DNA from: Tubulanus polymorphus
Taxonomy: Eukaryota; Nemertea; Palaeonemertea; Tubulaniformes; Tubulanidae
DNA length: 64,000 nucleotides
Reading direction: 5' to 3'
Assembly (NCBI RefSeq): GCF_964204645.1
Contig: NC_134026.1
Coordinates: 12,800,450-12,864,449, forward strand
Numbering within the stretch: position 1 is the stretch's first letter; each line of letters opens with the position of its first letter. The translations under genes and the position numbers were made by a program. Below are positions 4,010-31,959 of the stretch, in pieces. The notes under the pieces are model-generated. The model was not told the origin of the DNA. It ran no database searches and was given only the letters and a program-made list of their open reading frames with translations.

Positions 4010-4790
4010 TATGCTTATTAGCCATATGCTTATTCAGCAAAATAAATTCAATTCAATTTTACTTCCATTGAACAAATAAAACAAATCCAAATCAATTTCT
4101 AGTTTTATAGAGCAATTTTCAGAAAATTCAATTCCGCATTCAAATCAATAAAGCTAAGCGTACATTGACAAAGCGACTGGAGACAACTTGTTGCTCGTGA
4201 GTGAATACCTCGTGCACATCGAAAATCTAGTAAAAGCCAGCAACTCATGCTGGTTCATGCTGGTAGCACGTACATCATAGCGCGTACATCAATAGCAACT
4301 GAGATGTGTTAACTAGCAAATATCCTTGAGGGCATCTGATTATGGAGCGTTCACATCTACGGATATGACAGTAACTGAGTACAACTAGTTGCTCAAAAGT
4401 GAAACATGGGCAACTGGCTGGAACTGGAGATAGATGGACGCTAACCAGTCATTAGCTACAGTCGTTAGCTTGATCGCATCAACAAATTTGAGTAACTGAT
4501 TGTATCCAGCCAGTTCCTCGCATTCACCGAAAACTGTTGCTGTCTAGTTGTCTCCTATCGCAGTGTCGATGTACGCTAGGCTAGACCAAGCGAAAAGATT
4601 TATTTGAGGTATTTGTTCCTGCAAGCTCCAGTTGCTGTCTGAGCTAAACACAATTGCATTGTGTAAATTAATGGTAATGACTGTGCTGAGCTGGGGTGTA
4701 TTTTGACAAATATGATCCACATAATGCGTCATTTGCCATTTTATGAAAAGCTGACAGGCTGGCCATAGTGCCCCTTGGGGCTCTTGTTTT
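4010..4790 (+). repeat. Dispersed repeat R1, copy 2 (3' part)
   Basis: The 3' half matches 37297-37650 closely, including the end GCCCCTTGGGGCTCTTGTTT at 4770-4789. The middle (about 4150-4540) is not shared with the other copies and may be a further insertion. Confidence 0.65.
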
Positions 4791-5004
4791 CTCATTTATA
4801 CTTAGGATTTTCCAACAATTCTGCACATGCGTATTTAGCAACGTCACTTCAGTTGGAATAAACCCTACCTGAAAAAAGGTAACTCATTCGTCCTGGAATT
4901 AACGCTTACCTTTCAATAAGTAACTGAACAACATACGACCTTGGAGTAACAGCAGATTTATGAACAGTCGCTGGTGAACTCTCCAACCCTTCTCTTTATC
5001 AACC

Positions 5005-5410
5005 TTAACCCTTTCGATACCACATAGTGTCTCGGCTGTTGTACCGGAGGGAATTTAGGGGATTATAGGGGGTATATTTGAAACTTCATAGAATAGTTAC
5101 CAAAGTATCTGACACAAAATTTATATAGCATGTTGTTGATAACTTTTGGGCCAACAATGTAGACATAAATAATTTGGATATAAGTGAACTTGAGGTCAAG
5201 GTCACATACTCCAAGATGGCCCCCATGAAAAAAATTCATGAAAAATTTTCAGATAAACTGCTCTGTCTCCCAGCAAAATGCACTGATCTATTCAATTCCA
5301 ACTGAAATTGTATGCCATATATCCTTCCTTTATGTAGTAAAAATTTCAAAGCAATAGAACAACTGAAAAATGTATTTTTCCACCCATTTACCAACCGATG
5401 TAAACAGACT
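5005..5410 (+). mobile_element. 5' end of a TTAA element (piggyBac-like)
   Basis: Begins TTAACCCTTTCGATACCACA and continues for about 400 bp with the same sequence, inverted, as 39240-39653. The left end abuts TTAA at 5005-5008. The right end is missing; it breaks off before the Harbinger fragment. It carries no gene. Confidence 0.65.
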
Positions 5411-5534
5411 TCGCAGAGGGAAGTGATGTTGACAGACGAAAAATCCCGGGGCCCTGAAAAATCCTGAACAAGATTTTTCACCCAATTCCCTTTTGACCTT
5501 GTAATTTAGATTATCAATTAGAAGCTTACCATTG

Positions 5535-5985
5535 ACAATTTCAACATTATCGAGGGCATGATCAATATTTGAAACTGCAATTCACAGCCGCCATGGATGC
5601 TGTGAAACGAGCTTGAATCTTTGAACATATCGATGATGATGTTCGTTCTTTCCGATATGTTTATAGCAGGTGGTCCACCACCAGTCTTTGACAGGCTTTG
5701 CCGTTCCTTGGTAGCGATTCTTGTTGCGTTTTGTTGATCGTTTTTGAATTTTGATCGACATTCATCTGGTGTCCTGACAGCCTCTCCTAATGCTGTGATT
5801 TGATCGGCAATTTCACCTCACGCTTTCTGTTTTGCCACTTTAGTTATCGACACGCTGAATTAATTGAATAGTACATTCTGGTTTTCTTGAACCAGCTGCG
5901 TCAAGAGCAGTGCCTCTGCCAAAGTAAAATTCTTTCGCTTGTTTTTGACAAGTGTAGCGCTTGCTGAACTTTGACGTGACGCCAT
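5535..5985 (-). pseudogene. Harbinger-type Myb/SANT-like DNA-binding protein, broken
   Basis: The minus-strand translation starts at 5985 with MASRQSSASATLVKNKRKNF and reads NFTLAEALLLTQLVQENQ, then GEIADQITAL and RTPDECRSKFKNDQQNATR. This is the tri-helical Myb/SANT-like fold found in the second protein of PIF/Harbinger transposons, which binds the element ends and brings in the transposase. Two in-frame stops interrupt it, one after the first helix and one in place of the Trp expected before GEIADQ. The C-terminal part is lost near 5535. The sequence upstream of the start (5986-6150) ends GTGAAACTTGGCCC, which looks like an element terminus. No Harbinger nuclease gene is present. Confidence 0.7.
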
Positions 5986-20860: not shown

Positions 20861-21756
20861 ATGCATGGAATGCGCTGTATCAATCATCGAGTGCGATTTG
20901 GTAAGCAACGCCTTCGCTTCATAGATAGCGCCTTTTTAGTGGAAGTGCCTTTTTGGAGCGATCCGATATGCGTGGTCCCATTGAATATGCCCTAGTTTAG
21001 ACATACGCAGTGAGCTAATTTTTCGTCAAATTTCTTCGCAATTTGGTACAAATTTTGTGAAAATCGACCGAAAATTACCAGATTTATCGACGATTGATTA
21101 AATTATCACTCATATCAGTGCTGTTAATTGGTAAGTTCATTTAAATAAGCATAAGTGAAAAAGCCGGACGTTGCGGTCAATGACGAATATACCATCTTAA
21201 AGTCGTTCATTTGTGCTATTCAAACCTACGATTTGTTACGTGTTGCATTGCGTCGCAAAAAAATTTCGAGCACTTAAAAATGCTTATATACCACCTAGAT
21301 AATGCATAAGTGCAGAGTGTCTTTACTTTATTGAAGAACTATCATGCTATTGTTAATTTTTAAGCAATATGTATCTTAGCCTGTAAGTAGTAGTATTGGA
21401 CTGACTTGTTTTCTTTTTCAAAAGATATATTGTGTATTTTTTTTTTCGTTTAATCAGAATCTATTGATTTTTTTGAAAAACGTAGAAGCGACGCAAATAT
21501 TAACAGCCTGGAAGTGAATATTATGGATGGTTAGTACACTTTAAACAAAATTATCTTTCATACTGGAAATACAATATTTCAAAAATGTTTTGCTAATGAA
21601 TATTTTTTATTTTGGCTTTTAGGTGAACACTCTTGTAGGATCAGGCTTTGCTGGATATGTGGGGTGGATTGCGCATTTTATCGCAGAGAGAGAAAGAACC
21701 AGATAATCACAAAAGGGACACATCAAGGAGATATAATCGCCATATATATTCTGCTA
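20861..21756. other. Possible interior of element C; two weak exon-like pieces
   Basis: Sequence next to the element C terminus. At 21459-21534 and 21623-21740, open stretches flanked by ag/gt (IDFFEKRRSDANINSLEVN; a Cys-rich CRIRLCWICGVDCAFYRR) could be exons of a lost transposon gene. I do not recognise them, and support is weak. Confidence 0.3.
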
Positions 21757-22078
21757 CTATAATAATAATAATATGTGTCTTATATAGTGCTAAATCCAGC
21801 CAGGCTGCTCAGAGCGCTTTACATTTTTCGATATTATTACCCCGGCCAATTTTATACTCTAACATGTATCAGTCATCTCTCCCTGGGGAGAAGTAACACC
21901 GAGCTGCTAACAAATGCTCAGGAGTCATCTATCAGGTCAGGTACCCATTTACTCCTGGGTGGAGAGAGGCAATGAGGATAAGCGTCTTGCCCGAGGCCAC
22001 TACGGCAATGTACGGGGTTCGAACCCACGACCTGGCTTCCCAGAGTCGAACGCTCTAACCACTCGGCCACACCGTTCC
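21757..22078 (-). mobile_element. tRNA-derived SINE
   Basis: On the minus strand it opens with a tRNA-like head: A box TGGCCGAGTGGTTAGAG at 22069-22053 and B box GGTTCGAACCC at about 22027-22016. A conserved body (CCCAGGAGTAAATGGGTACC, then TGTAAAGCGCTCTGAGCAGC) follows, and it ends in an (ATT)n tail at 21773-21757. These are the parts of a pol III SINE; the tail is the probable 3' end. Type 2 (Leu/Ser-like) tRNA ancestry is an inference from the A box. Confidence 0.85.
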
Positions 22079-22589
22079 ACTAAATCTCTACTAAATATAA
22101 TAATAAATCTTTAGCCTCAAGTTGAAGTTCCTCGTATGTGTAGTTTGCTTTGCCTAAAAAGAAAAATTGTTATGATACCTACAATTTAATTACAGGAAAG
22201 AATGAATATTTTATATTATATAGTAAATAAAAACCAAAGTTACTTTCATACTTCTGCTGTTTTGGCCTATTAAAAAATTTAATAGGCCAAAACCCATCAT
22301 GGAAATCCATAGAAGCAAAAACAGTACAAATCTCATTTTCTAATGAGTAATATTTATTTATTATAGCATACCTTTTCGAATTTAACACACATCAATCTTG
22401 ATTTAATCACGTATTCAATATGGCCATTGCAATTATATTCATTTCAAATCTCGAAAAAAGTGATGGTTCAATTCTTTTTGTGACAATAAGTAAGTTGTAC
22501 AAGTTAAAATTCCAAATCTTATACTTTGCTTGTGATAACAAGTAACCTTTAAATCCTAATAGCAAACGGCAGTTTGCTTGATTTTTATG
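22079..22589. other. Intron sequence with one perfect palindrome
   Basis: Nothing coding. A perfect inverted repeat TTTTGGCCTATTAAA / TTTAATAGGCCAAAA with a 3-nt spacer occupies 22260-22292. Confidence 0.6.
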
Positions 22590-23152
22590 CCCCCAGCTCA
22601 ACTCTAGTTGAGAGGGGGCATATAGATTTACCCCTGTCTGAATACACCGCTGCCGCCGCCGCAATTGACGTAAACAGCCTAGAGGCCGCAATTGTTGACC
22701 GATTGTTTTCAAACTTAGTTCACAAGTAGGCTATCATTTCGGCCAGAACCCCATTTAAAATTAGGTTGATTCGATTCAAATAATGGCCACCAGGGGCCAA
22801 CATGAAAAACGACGTTAACAGCCTAAAGGCCGCAATTATTGACCGAATAATTTCAAACTTGGTACACAAGTAGGATATCACTTGGGCCAGAACCTTATTT
22901 AAAATTCGGTTGATTCGATTCAAATTATGATTCGATTCAAATTATGGCCACCAGGTGGCCAACATGAACAATGACGTTAACGGCCTAGAGGCTGCAATTA
23001 ATGACTGAATCATTTCAAACTAGGTACACAAGTCGGATATCACTTGGGACAAAAGCCTATTTAAGATAGGGTTGATTCAACTCAAATTATTGCCACCAGG
23101 GGGCCGACATGAAAAATGACATTAACAGCATAGAGGCCGCAATTGTTGACTG
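22590..23152. repeat. Palindrome followed by a 144-162-bp minisatellite
   Basis: A GCCCCCAGCTCAACTCTAGT / TGAGAGGGGGC stem-loop at 22590 is followed by units starting near 22667 (GACGTAAACAGCC), 22811, 22973 and 23118. Each unit contains GCAATT.TTGAC, TTCAAACTTGGTACACAAGT, a GGTTGATTCGATTCAAATTA block and GCCACCAGG. The second unit has an extra internal duplication of GATTCGATTCAAATTAT. Open frames here are the repeat in translation. Confidence 0.82.
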
Positions 23153-23159
23153 ATTTTTT

Positions 23160-23700
23160 AGCCCACTTGGGACTCACTTGCGTTCACTTTTCGTCCGTTG
23201 ACTTTTCGTCCGTCCATTCGTTCGTTCGTACGTCTAGTGGACGGAATCCAGTTACTTTTGGGAAGTTTTGAAGACGCCTCAATGTAATGTCTTGGTATTT
23301 GGGTTACAAATGCATCTACCCAAGACGCATCTTCAGCCCAAGAACTGGCCCTGTCAGATTCAAGATGGCCAACTGGCAGCCATTGTTGTTTGCCAAAATC
23401 ACTTTTTACACATTTTTGAACTTTTTGAGGAAAATTTTGAAGACGCTTTGATCAATTACCTTGATGTGTCGTATGTATTTGATTCCCCCAAGGGTCCATC
23501 AGCTTAAGAAAAATTGGGTCGATCGGATCAAGATCAAGATCAAGATGGCCGTCCTATGACCTTTTTCGTGCCCAAAATCTCAATTTTGGTCGAATTCTGA
23601 GTTCTGTAGCTTCCTACTGGTTTGCCATTTCTCATTGCAATTTGTGATGGGTATTCTTTGGAAATGGAAATTTTATACATGAGACAGGTTTTTTTGATCA
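23160..23700 (+). repeat. Dispersed repeat R10, copy 2
   Basis: Matches 3700-3985 over the pyrimidine-rich TTTTCGTCCGT region, GACGGAATCCAGTTAC, CAATGTAATGTCTTG and CATCTTCAGCCCAA. The 3' part (23540-23640) also resembles 48180-48285. Confidence 0.6.
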
Positions 23701-25844
23701 GCCAATTATGACACAATTTGCGGCCATTTTGGTGTCATCAGTACTGATTCGTAGGTGGGAAAAAGTTTTTCCACATTATATTGATACCTAAGCATATTGT
23801 GTTACCACAATCTACGAGCAATTATCTCACTGGAGGAAGCTCGCCCTATATCAGTGTACTACACACTGGTACGATCAGTAACGCTGTCAATCATACAGTC
23901 AGGGGTGTTTGGGATTCGACATCGCTGGACAGCAGTGCTGCGCGTTGATTCTAAAAGCAATCCATTGAGGTAGTTTTAAGATGACGTAGCCAACTGACGC
24001 ATGCGTATTTTGCACCAGAATGACCGCGCTTACGAAATCCACAGCTCAGTGAAAACATTTTGAAAATCGGTTGATAATTAAGATTTTTACGATATTATTG
24101 GATCTCCAGAGATTTTTAGTAAGTTCTGCAATAAATATATTTTATAAATCACATATTTTATATGTTCCTGACAGTTCCTGTGAATGAAGTATGCAGTTTT
24201 AAGTATGAAGTGTTGATGAATGCTGGGATGACATTCCGATGAATGCGGAATTAGGGTAAAATGCTGCAAAATCTTACAAAAATACAATACATTCACCTCA
24301 AATATGGCCGATCATCATTTCGACTGATTTTTTTCTAGAAATGGTGATCACATAGGTAAATAGTTGGTGTATCTTCTTAACAGAAATTGATTAGAAACTG
24401 CATGGACACTGTTTATTTACTACAGAAATTCAGAAAAATATATCCTTAGAATACATCAATCACGGACAACCAACTCCACAGTTTTTCATCGACAAAGTTG
24501 TATGAAACATTGTCGTTCTTTCCAATTTCACATGATGTCATTGAATGTTTTGTTGGTGTACTAAACAAATATAAGTTATCTCGAAAATTAAAACAGAAAT
24601 ATACTGAAAATTGTCTTGATGCAATACATGTACACAACATGGAAATATTAGATTAAAAATATGAAAGAGTAGTTACCTCTATTATACCTTTATAAAAGAT
24701 GAAAATTACTTCTTGGACCATGAAATACTTTATTTTGTAATTTGTACATATACTGAGTTTTGATATTCTATAGTCTGGCTCATTTTATCCATGTCTGTTG
24801 AGGTGAATACATCACACCCAAAAATCCGAACAATAGGCTCATCAATTAGCCCTGCCCCGACTAGTCAGCCATCCAAGACCAATCTTTCGGCATTTTTGGG
24901 TAGAGCTTGGCACCCAGGCTTAAATGAAAGGTGAGACTCCCCTCACCCTGAAACAGCTGTCTGCCGCTCTGTGATTTTTCACTTTCGGCCTATAGGGGGC
25001 GCTAAATACGGGGTATTCGTTAAGAAGGAAAATCGTCAAATATATTGCAAATTTACGTGAGGCGTGACGACGCCAACTGAAGAGTTAAAAAGTTGTTGAC
25101 CTTTTACACGTCAGCAGAGTATGGTTTCATATATATACGCTTATGCATGAATCGTTCACGATATGTTTTGTCAAACCCAGGAATCCAACGTTTAAAATCA
25201 TATATTGTTGGCTGTTGCCTAGCGACCTAATTTTTGCGCTGTTCACAGGGCTGAAAGTTAAGTTTCTGTTAATGCAAAGACACGGGAATTATATTTATCA
25301 GTTTTAGTTAACCAAATAATACCATAATTCATTTATAGAGACTGCCCGTGTTCCATATGACGAATCATAATGACCATCATTGTTGAAACGCCGTTGCTAT
25401 GACACCATAGATTTGGATGTCTCCATCCTTTCAATTAATGGATAAATGGATAACCGACACTCCTGTTGCTGTGAGACATCAACATCAAACAAACTCCGTT
25501 ACCATGGAAGCACATACTGTTAAAGGTTGTACTCCAACATTGTTGACTGTCTCCATGGTAACCAAGGCGGCAAATGCATGAAAATGCCTATGAAATGATT
25601 TTGGTTACGGTCCGATCTTGAGTTGTCACAGAAAAGTGATACTGGTATCGATTCCTATGTTTTTGGGGTCGCTCTACCCGTTTTTGGGTAGAGAAAAAAG
25701 CTACAATCAACTTATCACCAGGTTTTTAAATCTAGATAATCAAGTAATCTAAAATATTCATTTCTGCATGGGAAAAAAAGGATAAAATATCTTAAGTCGG
25801 TCAGAATAAATTCATGTTTTTATATTGCATAATATCTAAATCGT

Positions 25845-28800
25845 TTAGCACAAACCGTGACAAAGACATAATTTGATGCACCTTTTTCCCAATTTCTTAC
25901 ATTTACACAATTTTTTACAACCCTTTGTGCATTTACAAGTGACTATCTCATCATAATTTGTTGGTATAGCCTCGATGAATCTGTGAACAATAGTCAGTCG
26001 CCCATTATCAAGCGCCCAACCACCTGAATCTTTAGGCTCTCCAATAGGATTTACTCTATCAGCTGATAACCAAACTTTACATTGATAATTTGCTCTCAAG
26101 TAGTGAAGGTTCAGTGCATCTCTTGTAGGTGATAGTGCCGTTAGTTCCTTCGATTTTCTCTGTACAGTTCAACACATGCTGCATTCACTTCCGTACAATC
26201 TACAGATAAATCTCTCAATTTCATCTACCGTAAAAACCGGCGTATAAGTCTACACGGCGTATAAGTCGAGGTCGATTTTTAGACCTACATTTCATGATTT
26301 TAACATATATCCGGCTTATAAGTCGAGTCCCTTCTCTTAGAAGAATAATTACTAGTATCATTGTATTGAATAGTTTGTTTTGATAAGGATGTGTGCCTTC
26401 ACGCACGCCGCCACGCGTCAGCCTGATTGCTGCTGTGTGTTAATCAATAGACTGTTACACACACTCAGGTATAATACACTACCATACAGTGATACAGTAG
26501 TGTGAGTCACACGCTATATATAGCCTAATGTATTAAGCGCTGCTATGAGCGCGCATATATGAATACATGGTTTTAAATGAAGCTGTGTCAAAATGAAAGA
26601 AGTTTTTTTCATTAAATAACTTTATTTATCATGAATAATTATTCAAACTGTTATAGCAGTAAGAAGATGAACACTGTCTTTTTTGTCTGGTAGAATCAAT
26701 ATTTCTTGTGACCTGAAAATACTTCGTAGAAAACTGTACTCGGCGTATAAGTCGAGGTCAATAATTTAGTGGTAAAATCAGGGGTTAAAAACTCGACGTA
26801 TACACCGGTTTTTACGGTAAATTACCGTCCCTACCAACGCCTTCAAGAAGCTGCGATGAGGCCTTGAAGATATCCCAAGCAGTTTTCTTGCCTATTCCTG
26901 TCAGCGAACTTGTTGTGTCGGTACTGGTAAGGGCATGCCATCCGAGGATATTGGTCAGGATGTTATCATTGATTGATGCTCTTAGTTTCTCAATCACATA
27001 AACTTTGTTTCGACTGATCATTACCGCATCGATGTCTTTAGCAAAATGTAGCAAGAGAAGCAGAACATCCATATCATCAGCCAATACCACCACTCTAGTT
27101 GCATCTATAAATAAAAATAGACAGATAAATATCGACATAACATGATACATGTAAGCAGCTTTACAAATGTGAAAAATCAAAATATTGATGCTGAGGTATA
27201 TGCAATTTCAAGCCAGGAAGTTGGGATAGGTTGTTGATTATCGAAAAAAGCAATGATATTTTACTTGCCATTTTTCACTGCATGAAACATGTGAAATATG
27301 ATCCTGGTGTCAGCTTCCTCATGTAAGCATTCCAACGCAGCCATTTCCCCGGCGAATGACGAGGTGGGGTTCCTTCTTCCTCCACTGGTAATTATATTTA
27401 CTTCGTGTTCCGATTTAATCATATGCTGACGAAGGAAATCTACCAAGTCTGCCTTGTTTTCCTCGCATTTGATGAAAGCTTTCCAGACCTAAAAATTTAC
27501 ATTGAAGATTACCAGTACTATCTTGATAGAAATGCAATTAATCAAAATTGAAATTTCGAAAATGAAATTTATTAATGATATTCTACTTTTGTAAAAGGTG
27601 TTTTCTCTGTTATTAATTGTCGTACTCCAGGTGTGTTTATCTTTTTAGACCTCTTCTCTCTAGTAACTCTCTTCATTGATGTTTCTCCATAATATCTATC
27701 AAACAACATCGATCTGGAATGTATCATCAAGCTTCTGACGGTAAACCTGAATATGATAAGAAGTACGCATTTAGAAAGGGAGCTTTGTGGTTAGGGCAAT
27801 AGGTGAATAGACACTCTCGTCTGGTCTCTAAGTGAGGTGACCCCACGATATCTCATTTCATAAAATGAAAACTGACTATCCATCGGTGTTACCTTTTGAC
27901 GGAATAATTCTGCATAATCTCCAAATGTGGTACACAGTTTCGATGGACTGCCAATTTTTTGAATCATTGCACATCCATCAATTATCACTACTGATTTTCC
28001 AGTCAGCTTTCATTTAGTCATGATCTATCATACACATCAACAGAGCCTTCCTTCGCCAGGATATTAACAATCATACTTTTTGACGTCTGTCTTATATCCC
28101 CACAGTGGGTGGTTAGTGCAGGTGGAAATTCTGCCAATTCATGCTTGAGAATATATGCCATGTCTACGTCACGACCATTCTGTGAAGCGATAAATAGTTT
28201 CCGCAAGAACTTAGCAGAATCAGAATCTAATTTGTACTTTTTGGTAGTCTTTGGCTTTTCTACAGGAGCATCGTATAGATTTTTGAATGTCTGTGCCTTC
28301 TGTTGTGGGATTGGATGAAAGAAATCAGTTGATTTGTCCATAAGTCGATTAGTTATCACTGCCTCGACATGTTTTCTACCCAACTGTGATGCGGAAAGAA
28401 GATCCTTCGTTATCTTAACTGTGGCAACTTCGTTGGTTACGATAGATCTAGGAAGTCCCGATGGAGCACTTTCAAAGACCTTCAAAAAAAATAAAATGTG
28501 ATCATAATTGAGCACATCATGTACGAGCGTATCGAATTAGAAATCTCACATTGAAATCGGTAGTATACTTACTCTAAAACTATTAAGGAGACTGAGTTTT
28601 TCGATTGCTGCTTTGTCGCTGGATACTCTACGAGGCAATGCCTCCTTTCGTGTAGTAATATTACTGTCTGAATCTGCATCTGCCAAACCTAACAACATCT
28701 TTGTCTCTTGCATTATTTGTGATTTAGTCGCCCACGTGATGCAGAATCGATTTCTTGCTTTTTCATCTAGAATGATAATGTATGGTGGTTGAGAGCCTGT

Positions 28801-29190
28801 CACTGAAATTAGTTTATTAAACCACTTTCCCCAGACTTAACGGGATCTGAAAAGTATCTTACTAAAAATGTAAACAAACATTTAGAAGAATGTGACCCCC
28901 ATTGCAACTGAGTGTGCAAAAATTCCTAGTTTTCAACCAACCTGTAGAAACCCCGATAATTCCATTCGCCAATTTACAGATCCTGTTCATCCATTCCGTC
29001 GCTGGATCAAACGAGACTTGATTGAAGCTGGTGGCACTCCTCTTTGCAACAAAATTTCCCATGACAAATTCTCTGAAGAAAAGATGAAAAATTGAAGTGC
29101 ATTTTACAAAAAGTAGGAGTATAGATCCTGTATTAATATCTCTACGTATTATTACAGAGGAATTCTCAATAGTAGATGTGTATGCGGCCA
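25845..29190 (-). pseudogene. Element A protein: XPG/FEN-like nuclease domain with CXC tail, multi-exon
   Basis: Minus-strand exons, approximately: 29100-28870, 28801-28569, 28482-27780 (frameshift near 28018), 27730-27595, 27488-27265, then 27104-25848 interrupted by a MITE. In order they carry a WATKSQIMQETKMLLG segment, KLFIASQNGRDVDMAYILKH, VVIIDGCAMIQKIG, FDRYYGE, then ECLHEEADTRIIFH, VVVLADDMDVLLLL and TDTTSSLTGIGKKTAWDIF. The acidic positions and the G-x-GK-x2-A turn resemble the XPG-I/H2TH region of FEN1-type nucleases; the usual GCD is STD here. The C-terminus (CKCTKGCKKLCKCKKLGKRC) is a CXC, tesmin-like cysteine motif. At least one stop and one frameshift are present. Similar proteins occur as uncharacterised predictions in many invertebrates. 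The nuclease assignment is inference from motif pattern. Confidence 0.72.
26228..26817. mobile_element. Nested TA MITE with CCGTAAAAACCGG ends
   Basis: The left end CCGTAAAAACCGGCGTATAA and the reverse complement of the right end CCGTAAAAACCGGTGTATAC form the TIR, flanked by TA at 26226-26227 and 26818-26819. It sits in the last exon of the element A gene; without it and one TA, the frame reads GRDGNL then DEIERF. TA duplication points to a Tc1/mariner-like mobiliser. The interior resembles 59430-60250 and 56230-56440. Confidence 0.85.
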
Positions 29191-29416
29191 CATCTAGCCA
29201 CTTTAAAGAAATATTTTGTTGGACATAATGGCTGCAATATTTCTGTATTACCTACCGATAAACAGTTGGTGCTGTTTCTTCCACGTCTTTCATCTGAGCC
29301 AGATATACCCCAGCGTGTGTAGTTTGTATGGTCGTAGACAGTTTGATTGACAGCGTTACTGATCTTGTGTACAGAGATATAGGGCGAGCTTCCTCATGTT
29401 AGATAATTGCTCGTAG

Positions 29417-29560
29417 CCACAATCAATGGGAAAGTTGCAGCTCATAATGTGTTCTATGATTTTGGTGTGTTTCAAGGTCAATTGGTTTTTGTATATGGCC
29501 ACCAGGGGGCGTTGAATAATACAATAACTTCATCATCATCATCATCATCATCATCATGTT
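29417..29560 (+). repeat. R4 repeat unit with CCACCAGGGGGCG, and an ATC microsatellite
   Basis: Right-hand flank of element A. It matches the units at 31262-31400 and 55400-55860, including GGCCACCAGGGGGCGTTGAA at about 29501. A (CAT)n run occupies about 29531-29556. Confidence 0.7.
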
Positions 29561-29870
29561 GAGGCCTTTTGATGTCCGGCTCGTTTGGTAATTTACATAA
29601 ATTTAGGTGATATTTAAAATATTTCTCGATGCTCATAGTTTGATCTGCACCTAGCCCATCTTAAAGATGCGTGTTAAATGTTCTTTAGATCAGTTAGAAT
29701 GGTTAGAATTATTGTAACATTACATGACTAGTTAAAAATATTGATATCAATAATCTATCGGTATCATTTCGAGTTTAGATTTTAAAGAATAATAAAGTTA
29801 TCTATATATCGTTAATAAGTTCTAATAGTTTTTTAGAGAAAGACTTTTGAGATAGTTATCAATACTCAAG

Positions 29871-31118
29871 TTATCTAAATAAGTTTTTCTCAGTTATTTC
29901 CACATTGATAAAAAATGTGATATCAATATTTAGATATAGCATGAATATTATAAATAGTGTCGTTTTTGATATATTGTTCTGTTCCGGTACACATCCATGC
30001 TGTAGTTGGGTTCCACTCTTCTTCTTGACATGCTGTTGTTGCTCCTTTTTTTTTCTGTTCTTAGCTAATTGGATCCCGTTGAGTGTTGCAGGTTCGATCC
30101 TTTTTAATTTTATATAATTCTCTACGCATTGAACCCGATCATTTACATTGGTAAATATCACTCTTATGGGACGTGGTCTCGTTTGATTTTTATTGCCAAT
30201 TCTTCTGATGTCTCTTAAGTTGGCTGCACCAAGTTTAATGATACCATTTAGAAATCTTTCCACCCGAGAAGTGTCGTCACAAATAATCTTATTATCTGAT
30301 TCAGGTATGTTATATATGATAATGTGTGACCGTCTCTCATCATTTGAAGAGCTATTTGAAACACTGATTTCCTCTGTCAATGTTTTTGTTGAAGTGTTAA
30401 ATCCAGCTTCCATTTTATGGGTAGATTTCTTGAAGACCATATTTTCACTCTCAATCTGCTTAATTTGATTTGAAAGAATATCGAGATTTTTTGAGTTCGT
30501 ATCCAATAGTCTACTATGAGTCTCGATTTTTTCTCTGATGTCAGCTATGCATTTATTTGTTTTATAGCTTTCTTTTGCAGAAACTTCTTGATGTATTTTG
30601 GTAATCCGGGATTCTAAAATTTCTATAGCGTTAAAGAATATTTCTCTCATGTTCTTTATCTCCAATTTAATGGTCTCCATCTCTTGAAATTTCTGCTCAG
30701 TTTGAAAATCAGTCAAACATCGACTACACAGATATTTAACCGGCAGATTCTCTGCATTTTCAGCTGCGTTGGAGCAGTTATTACAAATTGACTGACCGCA
30801 CTTGGAACACTGGACGATCTCGTTTTCAAAATTAAACAGACGGTTACATTTAGAGCACGGTTCATAGTTTTCCCATTCATCATCTTCTAGTGTTGAATCA
30901 AGATCACTGTCCAGTTCTGCTAGACTCTCAGCAAACTTCAGAGCTTCTTCATGAATTTGCTCTTTTTTGTCACAGCCCTTTACCTTTGTTGCCATGGTTT
31001 CCCTTGTCTGAAATGGTTGCTGACTGGTGGTTGCTAAGTTGCTTGGATGATTTCCCACAGATTTCACTTTTAAAACACTCACAGATTTTCTTAGGGAAGA
31101 TCGTAGTTGTTGAAGCAA
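29871..31118 (-). CDS. LINE ORF1 protein: PHD-like finger, coiled coil, RNA-binding C-terminus
   Basis: An uninterrupted 415-codon ORF, the longest intact one in the window. Residues about 80-135 form a Cys-rich finger (CSKCNRL, CSKCGQSICNNCSN, YLCSRC) of PHD type. Residues about 145-235 are heptad-rich, likely a coiled coil (EMETIKLEIKNMREIFF on). Residues about 250-350 (RRSHIIIYNIPESDN, LRDIRRIGNK, RPRPIRVIFTN) match the RRM-like core of LINE ORF1 proteins, which bind element RNA. The last 45 or so residues are hydrophobic and probably read-through past the real end. No ORF2 follows, so this is a fragment of an element. The start could instead be the Met about 40 codons in (METMATK region). 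Confidence 0.75.
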   Translation of the reverse strand: MLQQLRSSLRKSVSVLKVKSVGNHPSNLATTSQQPFQTRETMATKVKGCDKKEQIHEEALKFAESLAELDSDLDSTLEDDEWENYEPCSKCNRLFNFENEIVQCSKCGQSICNNCSNAAENAENLPVKYLCSRCLTDFQTEQKFQEMETIKLEIKNMREIFFNAIEILESRITKIHQEVSAKESYKTNKCIADIREKIETHSRLLDTNSKNLDILSNQIKQIESENMVFKKSTHKMEAGFNTSTKTLTEEISVSNSSSNDERRSHIIIYNIPESDNKIICDDTSRVERFLNGIIKLGAANLRDIRRIGNKNQTRPRPIRVIFTNVNDRVQCVENYIKLKRIEPATLNGIQLAKNRKKKEQQQHVKKKSGTQLQHGCVPEQNNISKTTLFIIFMLYLNIDITFFINVEITEKNLFR

Positions 31119-31261
31119 TATTCAGAAGAATCCCTGTGTATTATTTAACATTGTCCTGCTAAGTTAGATGGCTGGAAGATGTTGTTTCTGTTAAATATGT
31201 AGAAGTTACATGGAGCTTAGATGTTCATTCTTCCTTCCATCCCCATGGTCACTAGGCAACT

Positions 31262-31400
31262 TAGTATTTCTATGTTATATTTGTACCTATGCATATTTTG
31301 TTATCACAATCAATTAAAAAATTGTATCTGCTGACATGTTCTTTGATTTTGGTGAGTTTCAAGGTCATTAGTTTTGTATATGGTCACCAGGGGGCGTTGA
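31262..31400 (+). repeat. R4 repeat unit
   Basis: Matches 55560-55700 through TTTGTACCTATGCATATTTT, CACAATCAATT and GTCACCAGGGGGCGTTGAA. Confidence 0.7.
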
Positions 31401-31959
31401 ATATTGAAGTTGTTAGATTGTTGAGCATTTGAAACCACTTTCCAAGTGGGCATGGTGTCCCTGGACCCTTAGTTTATTGAAATAAATATGTAATACTACT
31501 GATGTTGAAATTTTTGGGTAAGCAGGTCCATTACGTTAGCAAACGTTGGAGCCTGGCTATCTTGTAGTTAGTTTACAACACTGATGATTTTGATATCTTT
31601 AATACTCAGTGCACGACGCGTGTTGATTGCATTGTCAGCAATAACGCATTAACCGTTAACCATTTATGTATCGATTACGTGTAGTAATAGATAACGCTTC
31701 CCACGCTTTACTATTAAAAGCTATCATGAATGAAACTATTGAAAGCCACATTCATTCAGTTGATGAACTTGATTTCAACAGTAACCGGCCATCCTGGTTT
31801 AATATATGTACTGCCCTGAAATTGAAAAAGTTATATAGCAGCTTCTGATTTTGTTTGTCCCGAGTAGTTTATGTTCAAGTTTTAGTTGTTTTATGTCATT
31901 GTCTCACGGGATCAAAATTGTCAAGTCCAAAATGCCCATAATTAATCTTGCGTTTCTGG
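31401..31959. other. Intron sequence, fragments related to R2
   Basis: Non-coding. The part around 31600-31860 is distantly similar to the R2 repeat (ATGTATC, TAACCGGC, TTTTAGTTGTTTTATGTCAT blocks). Confidence 0.4.

Follow-up and report, generated by a model that had tools for sequence, protein, structure and literature searches.

A probable remnant of a cut-and-paste transposon with 7-bp target-site duplications in Tubulanus polymorphus, whose longer relatives join a P-like DDE domain to a FEN1/EXO1-fold nuclease

Elements of the P superfamily, which includes Drosophila P, Galileo, 1360 and THAP9, typically encode an N-terminal THAP domain and generate 7-8-bp target-site duplications (TSDs) with a GT..AC palindromic preference, and the nuclease of AcademX, among the Academ transposons, is of the XPG type. 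Published descriptions state that the P element makes a 17-nt staggered cut, which sets it apart from other characterised cut-and-paste transposons and whose order of strand cleavage and mechanism are unresolved (PMC7776569), that the target of Galileo is GTANTAC (PMC4168063), that Academ lineages encode a helicase (AcademH, with a 9-10-bp TSD) and a nuclease (AcademX, with a 3-4-bp TSD) (PMC10045372), and that Dada, which has no terminal inverted repeats (TIRs), targets small RNA genes (PMC3706591). Here, a transposon copy of 5,605 bp (23812-29416) was analysed in a window of 64,000 nucleotides from the nemertean Tubulanus polymorphus (C2:12800450-12864449 of the 268-Mb genome; positions given without a contig refer to this window). 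It probably represents a cut-and-paste DNA transposon that has been inactivated and internally deleted. In its longer relatives, a single protein combines a P-like DDE transposase domain with a FEN1/EXO1-fold nuclease and a CXC tail. Named relatives include sequences from a coral, a clam, a sea urchin and fish.

The element is enclosed by two copies of CCACAAT (23805-23811 and 29417-29423), the left of which was identified as a TSD from the sequence and from the 7-bp TSDs of other copies. The left TIR (23812-23900, plus strand), with the tip CTACGAGCAATTATCT, pairs with the right TIR (approximately 29337-29416, minus strand) over stretches of 48 nt (90% complementary) and 28 nt (93%), and the two were also matched in a gapped alignment, so that the inverted termini of about 85 bp and the flanking CCACAAT copies proposed in an earlier sequence-only reading were both borne out. 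With up to two mismatches, CTACGAGCAATTATCT was found at 715 + 705 places in the genome, compared with 50 + 53 for a reversed-pattern control, and as the count lies far above that control, the tip is not a product of chance. An inverted second copy of the locus is present on this contig at a distance of 1.1 Mb (window 21612-31616 against C2:13946582-13956580, about 10 kb compared in three pieces, 99.8-100% identical), through either a recent duplication or an assembly effect. The copy at C2:13948782-13954380 was therefore rejected as an independent insertion, its TSD being the same and its flanks 99.8-100% identical for about 2 kb on each side.

Use of the 89-bp left TIR as a query returned at least 27 ends in the genome, 18 of which pair into nine elements, while one is an end of L033 and eight were left as single ends. 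One pair corresponds to the duplicated window copy and was left out of the independent count, leaving nine elements read at both ends (the window copy, L033 and L105-L111). Both tips were recognised in seven of the nine, and all seven carry an exact 7-bp TSD (CCACAAT, GTTTGAC, GTTACAC, GAAATAC at two different loci, ATCTAAC and GGTATAT); L105 and L106, each with one damaged tip, were not scored. The two loci sharing GAAATAC, L108 and L109, lie on different contigs. Among the tip matches, two short elements were also found, L008 (454 bp) with an exact TSD and L015 (327 bp) with two mismatches, giving exact 7-bp duplications in eight of the nine scored elements. These results cover one terminus family, in one genome, with one coding insertion. 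Most of the sequence of the non-autonomous copies is made up of some 80 bp from one end and as much as ~1,050 bp from the other, with L105 and L107 being longer and having a different interior, and the outer ~1,050 bp of the left end of the window copy (23812 to ~24861, TIR included) is largely common to them (BLAST, element_rc 4556-5605). No match to P0003 or P0005 was obtained by tblastn (E ≤ 0.01) in the eight other copies (L033, L105-L111).

The target motif was the palindromic GTNNNAC, which resembles the GTANTAC of Galileo, and both the 7-bp TSD and this preference agree with those of the P superfamily. Like AcademX, the family is associated with a nuclease, and an Academ-lineage transposon whose TSD had shifted from 3-4 to 7 bp would account for it; this appears unlikely, given that the published descriptions assign 3-4 bp to AcademX and 9-10 bp to AcademH, and AcademX was excluded as a classification on the basis of its 3-4-bp duplications. 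The earlier sequence-only interpretation, that the gene is the element's own transposase or a core partner and that the 7-bp TSD may set the group apart, was partly supported. Dada shares a TSD of 6-7 bp and, following the second acid, an xxxH motif (DxxH in Dada, GxxH in this family), but differs in that TIRs of 80-89 bp are present here; a search of the window for tRNA genes and Rfam families gave no match.

The recognised coding remnants of the window copy are all on the minus strand (25848-29342) and follow the order expected of the protein family. The first (29255-29342) consists of YDHTNYTRWG and VYLAQMKDVEETAP with a frame break between them; its start, 'TVYDHTNYTRWG' (29307-29342), lies within the right terminus, and everything N-terminal of it is absent, corresponding to the part of the protein before residue ~514 of P0001, a 1,246-aa relative that is N-terminally short in alignment A1. 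This is followed by an exon with DPATEW (28946-29074), the E of which is the putative third acidic catalytic residue of the DDE domain, an exon after the RNase H domain (ARNRFCITWATKSQI..., 28549-28836) and a linker exon between the transposase and FEN domains (28018-28482, upper border approximate; 14 genome matches). The FEN block comprises exons with the first acidic motif VVIIDG (27890-28009), LFDRY...TREKR (27641-27709), HEEADTR (27264-27488, the motif at 27264-27326), and ADDMDVL and TDTTSSLTGIGKKTA (26818-27105, with ADDMDVL at 27034-27099 and TDTTSS..GIGKK at 26866-26934), confirming the motif order read previously. The remaining exons are one between the FEN block and the CXC tail (FICRLYG ... 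RANYQCKVW, 26070-26228) and that of the cysteine-rich C-terminal CXC tail (25848-25940). The gene is broken in at least three ways, namely by its N-terminal truncation at the terminus, by two frame breaks, one at the coding start in the right terminus and one in or near the CXC-side exon (~26157-26187), and by a second TIR element of about 600 bp (26223-26822), foreign to the original element, with 28-nt arms and TACCGTAAAAACCGG ends, which splits the coding exon preceding the CXC exon. The flanks of this second element suggest a TA duplication. The exons had been thought to fill the interior, but no recognised coding sequence is present in the ~1.95 kb at 23901-25847, where tblastn against four relatives gave no match.

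A structural model of relative P0008 showed a Rad2/FEN fold with conserved acidic residues. The fold and the order of acidic motifs are those of FEN1/EXO1/XPG nucleases, which differ in that the nuclease is here joined behind a transposase domain. The FEN nuclease was rejected as the entire transposase, since the longer relatives possess an N-terminal DDE domain that the window copy lacks. The CXC tail had likewise been claimed, and its peptide was located at 25848-25940 (minus strand), although the window exon gave no Pfam match, PF03638 was found in five of ten relatives at E ≤ 10 (best E 0.0015), and the Tesmin/TSO1-like CXC (TCR) profile scored 12.6 bits on P0001 against a cut-off of 23.5. 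The DDE region is overlapped by DUF6589 (PF20231), for which P0004 passes the cut-off (E 1.2e-7) and to which no function is assigned, a search of open-licence papers having found none on it. No announcement of a transposase fused to a FEN-type nuclease was found among the open-licence papers listed, Repbase not being included.

The DDE domain of the relatives appears most like that of P, the transposase fold of which combines RNase H with an inserted domain. Significant similarity was absent when the relatives were compared by hhalign with two single P-type sequences (E 0.59 and 0.12), PF21788 (the P GTP-binding domain) was not among the Pfam matches at E ≤ 10 in ten relatives, and no Pfam match to THAP was seen in the same ten, several of which are without their N-terminus. 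A Foldseek search with the DDE model returned nothing significant, a sequence search of solved structures gave no match, and no relative was found in viral contigs. The family further differs from P elements in its extra FEN nuclease and CXC tail. On scars, targets and fold, the element would work like a P element; membership of the P superfamily is not claimed, as the sequence tests failed.

The putative scars are short palindromes, hundreds of which, bearing the terminus tips, occur in the genome. Copies of the 16-nt tip greatly outnumber those of the long TIR because most loci at the first exact matches are short palindromes or lopsided remnants, 21-57 bp in length and situated between 7-bp duplications. 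Matches bearing 8 nt or more of each tip numbered 278 against 1 in the control (a few overlap), and those with both 16-nt tips 61 against 0. Classification, based on the first listed part of each search, placed 40 of 76 rows as exact duplications, 15 (12 sites) as having one mismatch, 5 as long ends and 16 as neither by the analysis rule, several of the last being visibly decayed scars; L081 figures in each of the two scar classes, in one of them owing to a chance repeat, and L054 is a doubtful case. As a random-pairing control gave 24 exact and 163 one-mismatch cases in 1,840, the one-mismatch class is the softer of the two. In an independent count, in which the two ends of one palindrome count as two, the flank recurred over at least 7 nt at 54 of 89 oriented ends (34 exactly 7, 20 longer), compared with 1 of 89 in the control.

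The retained end sequence stops at ...TCT(A/C/G)AAC, after 19-20 nt. Of 100 ends in the 16-nt set, for which 50 of the 61 loci were listed, 91 did not go beyond this point, and neither did 92 of 98 ends in the 8-nt set, with 49 of its 278 matches listed. The exceeding ends add 1-2 nt, A or AG, which may be read either as filler or as the first bases of the opposite end. Filler sequences vary, and some reproduce terminus sequence lying nearby, the kind of product expected from end joining; the microhomology joint predicted at AATT was found in 0 copies.

Most simply, the scars are read as the result of two strands being cut about 20 nt apart, since full tips are present at insertion, yet about 20 nt of each tip is left behind. 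The joining strand would be cut at the very tip of the terminus and the other strand about 20 nt inside it, and the donor site would keep about 20 nt of each end, to be sealed by end joining into a scar. Such a cut would resemble that of the P element, whose stagger inside the TIR is 17 nt. With less assurance, the FEN domain might make or trim the inner cut, or clear 5' flaps during gap repair after insertion, and the CXC tail might bind DNA. As the P element, to our knowledge, makes its stagger without a FEN-type domain, a trimming or gap-repair role is as open for the FEN domain as second-strand cleavage. It is tentatively proposed, at somewhat less than even confidence, that the family constitutes a separate superfamily in which a P-like DDE domain cuts the tip and the fused FEN/EXO1 nuclease makes or trims the ~20-nt inner break, with hundreds of scars recording former insertions and intact elements now being rare.

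Four observations speak for alternative readings: P-type sequences exist in the genome (six matches to PF21788, all above the cut-off), one of them a transposase gene in a 5.9-kb element with 32-bp perfect TIRs (C3:13541828-13547718); the window copy holds only part of its gene; most classified palindromes carry a TSD; and some identical palindromes recur (one 36-mer at 4 and one 37-mer at 6 of 50 listed places). The former two would be expected if a canonical P transposase mobilised a non-autonomous family to which the termini belonged, the DDE-FEN-CXC gene fragment being a passenger captured from another element. This is distinctly unlikely, because the TIR of that P-type element (CCATGGACTCTAAAACG...; one P-type locus read) is unlike CTACGAGCAATTATCT, and it would have to be a coincidence that the captured gene specifies a transposase with a DDE domain most like P. 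The latter two would suit ultra-short mobile palindromes (miniature inverted-repeat transposable elements, MITEs, of extreme brevity) inserting with 7-bp duplications, a reading considered very improbable given that the fillers differ widely between perfect tips (33 strand-independent sequences among 50 listed), that many remnants are lopsided with one end cut to a few nt, that the retained length stops at about 20 nt, and that some recurrences (L006, L021, L023 and L100) were copied inside larger repeats, as indicated by their common TSD CTCTCAC and flank. For the P-type element on C3, a script detected no TSD when the whole 32-bp TIR was used, but visual reading of the flanks gives the 7-bp TSD GGTAAAC on the assumption that the TIR starts at CATGG, one base inward.

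A lineage with a P-like signature and a built-in nuclease would make it possible to ask directly which active site is responsible for the inner cut. The scars would provide a natural record, several hundred strong, of genome repair of long-overhang breaks, and could be mistaken for tiny MITEs.

The 7-bp TSD is shown for the one terminus family only, because other families with the same gene gave no clear ends or TSD. L048 and L049 were set aside for want of convincing TIR/TSD ends. Distant DDE and FEN members of a ~25%-identical family were located on C3 (from C3:17727372; L119, L122 and L123, with an open frame of 1,097 aa) and C8 (L120, L125 and L126); these two copies are 99.5% identical over 6.6 kb, with foldback-like inverted ends of ~0.67-0.92 kb containing internal ~290-bp repeats, and no TSD was found for either. 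A weak PF21788 match (L123, C3:17735332-17735472) was seen ~0.6 kb past the right-hand terminus of the element on C3. Another family member, L121 (C6:14917600-14925400; C6:14920858), is situated between inverted arrays of a 31-bp tandem repeat, its ends being undefined. Outside the window element, a 416-aa open frame (29874-31121, minus strand) contains a zinc finger below the Pfam cut-offs (FYVE/PHD) and presumably resembles ORF1 of an element of the long interspersed nuclear element (LINE) type.
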